Shown piece after piece: positions 13,910 through 17,600 of a stretch of DNA of 35,663 nt. The notes below the pieces were generated by a model. The model saw nothing but the letters and a program-made list of their open reading frames with translations. It was not told the DNA's origin and made no database searches. The position numbers were made by a program, and so were the translations under genes. Where the stretch lies: the NCBI RefSeq assembly GCF_025965215.1, contig NZ_JAOPXI010000018.1, positions 1-35,663 of the forward strand, read 5' to 3'. Every line of letters begins with the position of its first letter. The first letter of the stretch is position 1. This DNA comes from Marmoricola sp. GTDB lineage: Bacteria > Actinomycetota > Actinomycetes > Propionibacteriales > Nocardioidaceae.

Positions 13910-15013
13910 ATGAGCTCACCGACCCCGCGTGCGGCGCTCGCCGGCATCCCCGCCTACGTGCCCGGCAAGCCGCCGACCGTGCGGCCGGGAGTGACGGCGT
14001 ACAAGCTGTCGTCGAACGAGAACCCCTACCCGCCGTTGCCGGGCGTGCTCGAAGCGGTGGCCGCGGCGGCGGGTTCGATGAACCGGTACCCGGACATGGC
14101 GTCGACCGCACTGCGTGAGGCGCTCGCCGCGCGAGCCGGAGTCGGGATCGACCAGGTCGCGACCGGCACGGGGAGCGTCGCGGTGATCTACCACCTCCTG
14201 CAGGCGTTCTGCGATCCCGGCGACGAGGTCGTGCACGCCTGGCGCTCGTTCGAGGCCTACCCGATCGGCATCACCGCACAGGGGGCGACCTCGGTCGCCG
14301 TGCCGCTGACCTCCGACGGACGGCACGATCTGGCGGCGATGGCTGCCGCCGTCACCGACCGGACCCGGGTCGTCCTGCTCTGCTCCCCGAACAACCCGAC
14401 CGGTCCTGCCCTGCGTCATGCCGACGTTGTGGCGTTCCTCGATCACGTCCCGGGCCGGGTCCTGGTCGCGATCGACGAGGCGTACCGCGAGTTCGTCCGC
14501 GACGACGACCCGCTCGACGGCGTGCAGCTCGCGAGGGAACGGGAGAACGTCGTCGCGCTGCGGACCTTCGCGAAGGCCTACGGGCTGGCCGGGCTGCGGG
14601 TGGGCTACCTGATCGGACCGGAGCCCATCGCCGCTGCCGTGCGCGCGTGCGCGCTGCCGTTCGGTGTCTCGACGGTCGCCCAGGCGGCCGTCCTCGCCAG
14701 CCTGGGAGTCGAGGACGAACTGATGGCACGGGTCGAGGCGCTGATCGCCGAGCGGGACCGGGTCACCGCCGGACTGCGCGACCAGGGCTGGGCCCTCCCC
14801 GATGCCCAGGGCAACTTCGTCTGGCTCGACCTGGGGGCCCGTACGACGGACTTCGCGGCCTTCGCGGAAGCGGCCGGGATCACGGTGAGGCCGTTCCTCG
14901 ACGAGGGCGTGCGGATCTCGATCGGAGAGGCCGCGGCGAACGACGTCCTGCTAGTGCTGGCCGATGATTTTCGCAAGGTCCACCTCCGGAATGGCCCGGG
15001 CGATCGCGGTTAG
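13910..15013 (+). CDS. hisC: histidinol-phosphate/aromatic aminotransferase (class I/II PLP enzyme)
   Basis: [60 protein letters not shown]. Confidence 0.88.
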
Positions 15014-15061
15014 CTCCGGTTTGGCGGGCCCGCGCCGGGCTGACCGGGCTAGCCCACGGTG

Positions 15062-15272
15062 ACCGCCTGTCGAACACCCCTTGCCGGGCGGTCCCCTCTG
15101 GTCGTCCACTTGCTCCAGGACGTGGGGGATTGTCTGATCGCAGACGCCGAAGCCAGCCCCCAGATACTGGATCGGGCGACTTGCACCCACCCCCCAGGGG
15201 GCAGCGCCGACACCACCCGCTCCAGTGCGGCTTCGGAAGGCGCGTGTCCGGCCTCGTCGCCGGGCACGCGCC
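15062..15272 (+). ncRNA. candidate structured C-rich small RNA (6C RNA-like), boundaries approximate
   Basis: Series of hairpins, two with C-rich loops: CCGA-ag-CCAG[CCCCCAGATA]CTGG-a-TCGG (15147-15175) and GGCG..TGC.CCC[ACCCCCCAG]GGG-GCA-g-CGCC (15175-15208), then a 13-bp hairpin (15239-15272). Confidence 0.4.
15239..15272 (+). terminator. strong hairpin, possible terminator (13 bp stem, 8 nt loop, no T tract)
   Basis: GGCGCGTGTCCGG-CCTCGTCG-CCGGGCACGCGCC, one T-G wobble. Confidence 0.45.
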
Positions 15273-15318
15273 GCCCCGTCCGGCGTGGCCCTGAGATTCG
15301 GACCTGTAATTTGGGTCC

Positions 15319-16155
15319 GTGCGCACGGTGGACGACCTGCGGCTCCAGGTACGAAGGGTGATCCCCCTCGTTGTCCTGCGGGCGCTGGTGCGCAAGCACA
15401 TCGAGGTCCTGATGCGGGACCCCGAGTTCCGCGCGATGCAGGAGGCGCAGCTGAGGTTCCTGCTCGACCACACCGACCGGGCGCACGAGATCCCGGCGCT
15501 GGCGCATGCCTACGCGTTCCACTCCGCCATGCGTGCCCATGTGCGGTGGCACCCGCGCAAGATGCGCCGCCAGGAAGTACGCGGCATCGAGTGGCTGACC
15601 ACCCAGCGGGATCCGGACCGCGGAGTGGTCCTCAACTTCATGCACCACAACGACTACCCGGGCGTCTTCACGTCGCTGACCCGTGCCGGTGCCGGCCCGA
15701 TCCTGATCGTGGCGATGCCGACCATGCTGGAGCCCGAGGTCGATCCCGGGATGCGGCAGATGATGCGCACCGTGCTCTCGCACCGCAGCAACTCGGCGAT
15801 CGCGGCCGCCGGGGGGACCGACTTCATCGCCTCACACCTGGGGCCCGGGACGACGATGGCCATCGCCTCCGACCTGCCCGGCCATACCGAGGTGACGTTC
15901 CTGGGCCGACGCGTGCTGGCCTCCTTCGGCGCCGCCCGCATCGCCACGATGACGAACTCGCCGGTCGTCGTGGTCACGGCGGTGCGCGAGGGCGCCGGCC
16001 ACTACTTGCAGCTGCACCCGCCGTTGGAGCCGGGCGAGTTCGCCGAGCCGGCCGATCTCCTCGAGGAGATGCTCCGCATCCATGGCGAGGCAGTGCTGGC
16101 CTGGCCGGAGGCGCTGGAAGCGCCGATGGCCAGGCTGGGAAGCGTCCCGGACTGA
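15319..16155 (+). CDS. LPLAT superfamily (LpxL/HtrB-like) acyltransferase-like protein
   Basis: GVVLNFMHHNDYPGVF ... AIASDLPGHTEVTFLGRRVLASFGAARIATMTNSPVVVV resembles LpxL-type architecture; GTG start. Confidence 0.6.
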   Translation: MRTVDDLRLQVRRVIPLVVLRALVRKHIEVLMRDPEFRAMQEAQLRFLLDHTDRAHEIPALAHAYAFHSAMRAHVRWHPRKMRRQEVRGIEWLTTQRDPDRGVVLNFMHHNDYPGVFTSLTRAGAGPILIVAMPTMLEPEVDPGMRQMMRTVLSHRSNSAIAAAGGTDFIASHLGPGTTMAIASDLPGHTEVTFLGRRVLASFGAARIATMTNSPVVVVTAVREGAGHYLQLHPPLEPGEFAEPADLLEEMLRIHGEAVLAWPEALEAPMARLGSVPD

Positions 16156-16160
16156 AGCGA

Positions 16161-17600
16161 TCAGCCGGCGGGCAGGGTGATCGAGAAGGTCGCACCGCCC
16201 GAGGGTCCGGACGAGTACATGACCGAACCGCCCTGGGCCTGGGCCAGGGTGCGGACCACGTGCAGGCCGAGTCCGGTCCCTGCGGACGCAGTCCCGGACG
16301 CCCGGCTGAATTCGCGGAACAGGTGCGGCCGGAACTCGACCGGAACCCCGAACCCGCTGTCGTTGACGTCGATGCAGACGAACTGCTCGTGGTCGCCGCT
16401 GGCGCGGACCAGCACGGTCACCGGGGGGCGGCCGTACTTGTGGGCGTTGGCGAGCAGGTTGCCGAGCATCTGCTCGAGCCGCAAAGGGTCGGCGGTCACC
16501 GGTCGGGCATCCATGACCTGGATGGTGACGGTGTCGGCGTACCGGTCACCGACGACCCCGGCGATGACCTCGAACGGGTCGACCGTCCGGGCCTCGACCC
16601 GCAGGGTGCCGCGCTGGATCGCGCTCGCGGTGATCAGGTCGGCGCTGATCCCTTCGAGCATCCGGGCCTGGCGGACGATCGAGGCAAGCATCCGTTCGCC
16701 GTCCTCGGGGCTCGTCGTGCCTTGTTCGGACAGTGTTTCCGCGATCGCCCGCAGCACGGAGACCGGACCGCGGATCTCGTGCGCGGTGGTCGCGATCGCC
16801 GTGCGCAGGGTCGCCACCTCGTCGGCGGTCGGCTGCAGGAACAACAGCAGCGAGTCACCGGCATGCTTGAGCGAGACGTGCGTGGAGCGCGGACCGACGT
16901 GAGTCTCGAAGGTCAGGTCCCCGCTCAGCCGGTTGTGGGCCAGCGTGGTCGCCAGGGTCGGAGCGACGCTCGCCAGCGGCGCGTCGGGCCAGGGGACGGA
17001 CTCGAGAAGGTCGAGAGCCGCCGGATTCACGGCGACCACCCGGTACGGCGGTTCGGCGGTGACCTCGAGGACCCCGTACGGCGCCAGCGCCACCGCGTCG
17101 GGCGCTACCGGACGGATCTCTGGGATCGGACGTGCGGTCGTCTCTGATGCGTCAGCCGTCGCGACGGGAGTGGAGCGCGAGCTGGTCGGGTCGTCCACCA
17201 CTCGGAGCGCGGAACCGCTCACGATGTCGCGGATGTAGTCGAGGATCCGTCCGAGCGACGCGCCCTTCTGCAGGTAGGCATCCGCACCGATCTCCAGGGC
17301 CCGCTCGGACATTCGACTCGCGCCGAACCCGGAGAGCACGATGATCCGCGCGTCGGGAGCGAGCTCCCGGATGGCCGGCAGTGCCTCGAGGCCGTCCATC
17401 ACGGGCATCGAGAGATCCAGCAGGACGACGTCGGGGTTGCCGTTGCGGACTGCCTCGATGCCGGCCGCACCGTCGCCGGCCTCGCCGACGACCTGCATCC
17501 CACCCCTGATCAGTGCCATCCGCAGCAGTTCGCGCAGGTCGGCGGTGTCATCGATGATCACCACGCGTAGCGACTCGGGCTCCTGCAGGGCGGCCGTCAT
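16161..17600 (-). CDS. REC-(PAS-like)-HisKA-HATPase protein (receiver at N-terminus of a histidine kinase)
   Basis: VVIIDDTADLRELL / VVLLDLSMPVMDG / AYLQKG receiver, then TAHEIRGPVSVLRA, NLLANAHKYG, DVNDSGFGVP, GTGLGLHVV. Confidence 0.9.
   Translation of the reverse strand: MTAALQEPESLRVVIIDDTADLRELLRMALIRGGMQVVGEAGDGAAGIEAVRNGNPDVVLLDLSMPVMDGLEALPAIRELAPDARIIVLSGFGASRMSERALEIGADAYLQKGASLGRILDYIRDIVSGSALRVVDDPTSSRSTPVATADASETTARPIPEIRPVAPDAVALAPYGVLEVTAEPPYRVVAVNPAALDLLESVPWPDAPLASVAPTLATTLAHNRLSGDLTFETHVGPRSTHVSLKHAGDSLLLFLQPTADEVATLRTAIATTAHEIRGPVSVLRAIAETLSEQGTTSPEDGERMLASIVRQARMLEGISADLITASAIQRGTLRVEARTVDPFEVIAGVVGDRYADTVTIQVMDARPVTADPLRLEQMLGNLLANAHKYGRPPVTVLVRASGDHEQFVCIDVNDSGFGVPVEFRPHLFREFSRASGTASAGTGLGLHVVRTLAQAQGGSVMYSSGPSGGATFSITLPAG

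Follow-up and report, generated by a model that had tools for sequence, protein, structure and literature searches.

In the stretch of Marmoricola sp. DNA analysed here (35,663 nt in full, hereafter the window), we propose, with a probability of about 0.6, that positions 15141-15272 of the plus strand encode an independently transcribed non-coding small RNA (sRNA) that acts in trans, pairing with G-rich mRNAs via its runs of cytosines. On sequence comparison, the case for the gene and its fold is strong, and trans-pairing through the C-runs is plausible by analogy with a known RNA. As far as our search shows, the RNA family is absent from Rfam 15, and it is most likely lineage-restricted, being carried by some members of a single Nocardioidaceae genus. 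The coordinates of the features are collected in Table 1.

Table 1. Features of the sRNA locus and flanking genes (window coordinates)
Feature	Position	Strand	Remarks
Aminotransferase ORF	13910-15013	+	PF00155
Palindrome GGGCTAGCCC, candidate transcription-factor site	15046-15055	.	GG-CTAG-CC-like form in 7/7
−35-like CTTGCCG	15080-15086	+	CTTGC in 7/7 carriers; predicted function
Weak −10-like TCCACT	15105-15110	+	18 nt past CTTGCCG; predicted start about 15117
Possible second promoter CTTGCTC-N17-TCTGAT	15109-15138	+	Predicted start about 15145; confined to the lineage of the window
Variable 5' leader with G-run GTGGGGGA	15117-15146	+	Length differs between species
Conserved sRNA core	15141-15237	+	Basis of covariance models R1 and R2; covariation
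P1 5' strand CCGAAGCC	15147-15154	+	Pairs with 15229-15236; covariation
AGCCCCCAGA, C5 segment, bulge, candidate seed	15155-15164	+	Near-invariant
P2 5' strand ACTGGA	15166-15171	+	Pairs with 15221-15226; 100% of cells paired
P3/P4 apical hairpin	15175-15208	+	Double changes in 4/12 pairs
ACCCCCC, C6 segment, apical loop, candidate second seed	15189-15195	+	Kept in 7/7
P2 3' strand TCCAGT	15221-15226	+	Pairs with 15166-15171; covariation
P1 3' strand GGCTTCGG	15229-15236	+	Pairs with 15147-15154; covariation
Terminator-like GC-rich hairpin, probable 3' end	15239-15272	+	7/7; double changes in 4/15 pairs
Acyltransferase-like ORF	15319-16155	+	PF03279 (lipid A acyltransferases), weak, just above cut-off
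Response-regulator/histidine-kinase ORF	16161-17600	−	N-terminal receiver domain, C-terminal HisKA/HATPase

The non-coding gap and the carriers of the RNA

An earlier, sequence-only reading of this DNA had pointed to a region of about 300 bp with no convincing ORF. The gap is real and measures 305 nt (15014-15318) between the aminotransferase ORF, whose closest named relatives are from Marmoricola and Nocardioides, and the acyltransferase-like ORF. Its non-coding nature was supported as well: no frame is common to the seven carriers of the region and indels in the C-runs shift the frames, and a coding region was thus rejected. Neither a tRNA nor any Rfam family at gathering score, the riboswitch and 6S families included, was detected in the window. 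The fold of the plus strand beat its dinucleotide shuffles (z = −3.44, with 0 of 100 shuffles as good), and that of the minus strand was not better than shuffles (z = −1.22).

When 59 relatives were searched by blastn, the whole region was recovered only in G016, at 93% identity, and the 3' half (about 15135-15275) in G011, G015, G018, G019 and G021 at 76-80%. Together with the genome of the window (G000), these are the 7 carriers among 24 congeneric genomes, each with a single copy; searching all 24 with covariance model R1 gave no second copy. This model was built on six cores, and the sequence left out, that of G021, was recovered at an E-value of about 1e-10. The covariance-model scores were 113 bits in the window and 63-110 bits in the six congeners, the held-out one included. 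Candidates were also scored from other genomes of the family (about 320), the order (298) and the class (395), samples that overlap in some genomes, and none proved to be a further carrier; since the filters were strict and part of the candidates was scored, distant members may be missed. Moreover, a degenerate sequence pattern gave other matches in the family only at two to three mismatches, about as many as the reversed control, and no match to the RNA was found in plasmids.

Fold, covariation and the C-rich segments

The conserved fold, at 15147-15236 of the plus strand, is one long imperfect hairpin. Covariation across relatives, which the earlier reading had named as a check, was found: in the unfitted MAFFT alignment 92.6% of the cells are paired and double compensatory changes occur in 15 of 45 pairs, and the model-fitted alignment of the core gave 93.8% and 11 of 30 pairs, these values coming from seven sequences in all, two of them near-identical (window G000 and G016), with limited control for relatedness. 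None of 500 shuffles reached the observed pair counts, and with slid partners the pairing was only 28-53% (37-45% when slid by 1-3 columns on the MAFFT alignment). The shuffle z-scores of the core were modest, from −1.3 to −2.9, and the retained G-U pairs are consistent with the plus strand. P2 is the best helix, with zero broken pairs; its first two pairs covary (GC/AU and CG/UA), and it reads GTTGGA/TCCAAC and GCTGGC/GCCAGC in other carriers.

The sequence-only reading had listed a series of hairpins, and these fared differently. The stem of the C6 loop (about 15175-15208) and the 3' hairpin were correctly placed and are conserved, the latter being terminator-like. The sequences of the hairpins at 15062-15092, 15104-15121 and 15132-15145 are indeed present, but only in the window and G016, and they probably lie in the promoter and leader. 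As for the local CCAG/CTGG stem with the loop CCCCCAGATA, most relatives can form it, yet it has zero double compensatory changes; this local C5 hairpin was rejected, and the long-range pairing of P1 and P2 is supported instead, which leaves AGCCCCCAGA as a mostly unpaired bulge.

Both C-rich segments are retained though the surrounding stems vary. AGCCCCCAGA is invariant in the seven carriers save for one G-to-A change in G018. In thermodynamic models, most of its Cs are predicted to be unpaired at a level of about 0.8 or higher in six of the seven species and of 0.7-1.0 in G021; the first C is often paired, and the C5 run is mostly unpaired in all seven. The ACCCCCC segment has an extra C or A in some carriers. 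Its loop is open in the models of G018 and G021, has four of the six Cs open in G015, and is partly or wholly paired in those of the remaining carriers; in G011 and G019, both of which have longer leaders, the C6 run pairs with the leader G-run.

Promoter elements, 3' end and neighbouring genes

A common layout was computed for all seven carriers: the palindrome, 27-28 nt, CTTGC, 17-18 nt and a −10-like hexamer, the last reading TNTAGT in G011, G015, G019 and G021. In the 3.6-Mb genome there is one exact GGGCTAGCCC 10-mer, versus 15 occurrences of the reversed control. The sRNA would be transcribed from its own promoter, formed by CTTGC and the −10-like hexamer at this spacing, probably under the control of a regulator that binds GGGCTAGCCC. 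Transcription would end at the GC-rich hairpin, which is not followed by a U-run, and the predicted product is about 130-160 nt long. Leader lengths were deduced from the promoter elements, and a G-run lies upstream of the core in the leaders of three lineages (window 15120-15129; loci L005 and L006). G006 (L111:1430) and G007 (L107:229) also have a similar GG-CTAG-CC-like palindrome, right after the aminotransferase gene, where no RNA is recognisable and the next genes look by eye like those of secreted proteins; the palindrome may therefore serve more than the sRNA.

The genes around the RNA differ between carriers. The upstream neighbour is the aminotransferase, in the same direction, in G000, G016, G015 and G018, a divergent EamA gene in G019 and G021, and a divergent ORF, resembling by eye a low-molecular-weight phosphatase, in G011. 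The four genomes with the aminotransferase upstream would fit a stable 3' UTR product of its mRNA; however, the gene is missing from G011, G019 and G021, which have the RNA all the same, with the promoter-like elements conserved, and we give this origin hardly any credence. On the other side, a convergent kinase gene lies directly downstream in G011, G018, G019 and G021, and counting G000 and G016, where the acyltransferase-like gene intervenes, six of the seven carriers have it on this side of the RNA; the downstream neighbour in G015 is a convergent EamA-type gene. The acyltransferase-like gene adjoins the RNA in G000 and G016 only, and it is probably a later arrival between the RNA and the kinase gene. 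In the window, the RNA precedes this gene in the same direction and carries a terminator-like 3' hairpin, as a cis-acting leader (riboswitch or attenuator) would. Such a role is nevertheless very improbable, given that in the five other carriers the next gene is the convergent kinase or EamA-type gene, and that no Rfam riboswitch matches. Collectively, the RNA stays while its neighbours change, which argues that it is neither an acyltransferase riboswitch nor an aminotransferase 3' UTR. A functional link of the sRNA with the kinase gene is possible. The EamA protein tree was poorly resolved as to whether the carriers form one clade.

Mode of action and comparison with known RNAs

In the mechanism that we favour, the long imperfect hairpin would keep the AGCCCCCAGA bulge and the ACCCCCC apical loop open, and these C-rich segments would most likely base-pair in trans with mRNAs where these are rich in G, for example at G-rich ribosome-binding sites. 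By analogy with the mycobacterial 6C RNA, B11, this pairing would block translation. B11 pairs directly with a G-tract 5' UTR and so represses it, either C-loop alone being sufficient, and six consecutive complementary bases were considered a possible site (PMC10470900). Across the seven genomes, exact copies of UCUGGGGGC shortly upstream of start codons were not enriched relative to the reversed control, a nine-base match being much stricter than the six bases of B11. We also considered a self-gate, in which, in species with a longer leader, the leader G-run would bind the C6 loop and thereby hide one of the two seeds; this is improbable, and if true, the choice of start site or the GGGCTAGCCC regulator would set the targets bound.

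Protein binding is the main rival to trans-pairing: the structured RNA would bind RNA polymerase, as 6S and Ms1 do, or a C-rich-RNA binder, and would not pair with mRNAs. The shape of the RNA, a long imperfect hairpin whose bulge is asymmetric, agrees with this, the near-invariant unpaired letters could form a protein site, and the target scan, a weak test, gave no targets. However, no 6S family matched in Rfam, and Ms1 is described next to a HAD hydrolase gene (PMC9130861), of which there is none among the neighbours identified here. Transcripts of <150 nt are held too short for 6S/Ms1 (PMC9130861). Protein binding is thus conceivable but unlikely, and pairing in trans remains the reading that we prefer.

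The likeness to 6C RNA put forward by the sequence-only reading stood in part: this is a structured, C-rich non-coding RNA of the plus strand, but identity with 6C was not supported. The Rfam 6C model, the check it had suggested, gave 17 bits (E = 9.5) versus a gathering score of 47, and the match covers 15023-15099, in the promoter area and not the C-rich part. A diverged member of the 6C family could be argued from the C-run loops, the 3' hairpin and the actinobacterial host. In agreement, conserved unpaired C-runs, a feature of 6C, are found here (the C5 run being mostly unpaired in every model and the C6 run in part of them), and five other genera of the family have 6C matches that exceed the gathering score. 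Against this speak the low score at the wrong position, a different architecture and a 6C-like element elsewhere in the same genome, also present in G016 and G018. In G018, a 41-bit 6C match lies at C4:998959 and the sRNA at C5:386919, on separate contigs; in the window genome, the DNA at G000:C106:26402-26512 (L149, minus strand) is similar to the G018 element and has a single hairpin whose loop carries six Cs, and then a GC hairpin. Rfam reports no 6C at this place, and we therefore label it 6C-like only; the gene downstream of it begins, as read by eye, like an HrpA-type helicase. With score, position, architecture and locus all in disagreement, membership in the 6C family was rejected as scarcely credible.

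The sRNA adds a well-supported RNA family to the Nocardioidaceae, where a search of an open library gave a single paper that names Marmoricola, Nocardioides and sRNA together. If the C-runs work as supposed, C-run pairing RNAs would have evolved more than once in actinobacteria. Moreover, with the sRNA and the 6C-like element in one genome, it becomes testable whether two C-rich sRNAs share the work between them.

With Ms1 and 6S, the sRNA shares the form of an actinobacterial small RNA with a long hairpin and unpaired parts, and it differs in having no 6S match and in its neighbours, which are aminotransferase, EamA, kinase, acyltransferase-like and phosphatase (by eye) genes. In alignments of 6C RNA (RF01066; B11 in mycobacteria), two hairpins follow each other and both have a C-run in the loop, whereas the sRNA folds into a single long imperfect hairpin, whose bulge holds C5 and whose apical loop holds C6; it lies at another locus, and its GC hairpin has no conserved C-run. 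Common to both are the actinobacterial host, C-runs in unpaired loops, a GC-rich 3' hairpin and, probably also for the sRNA if the analogy holds, action in trans on G-rich mRNA sites.
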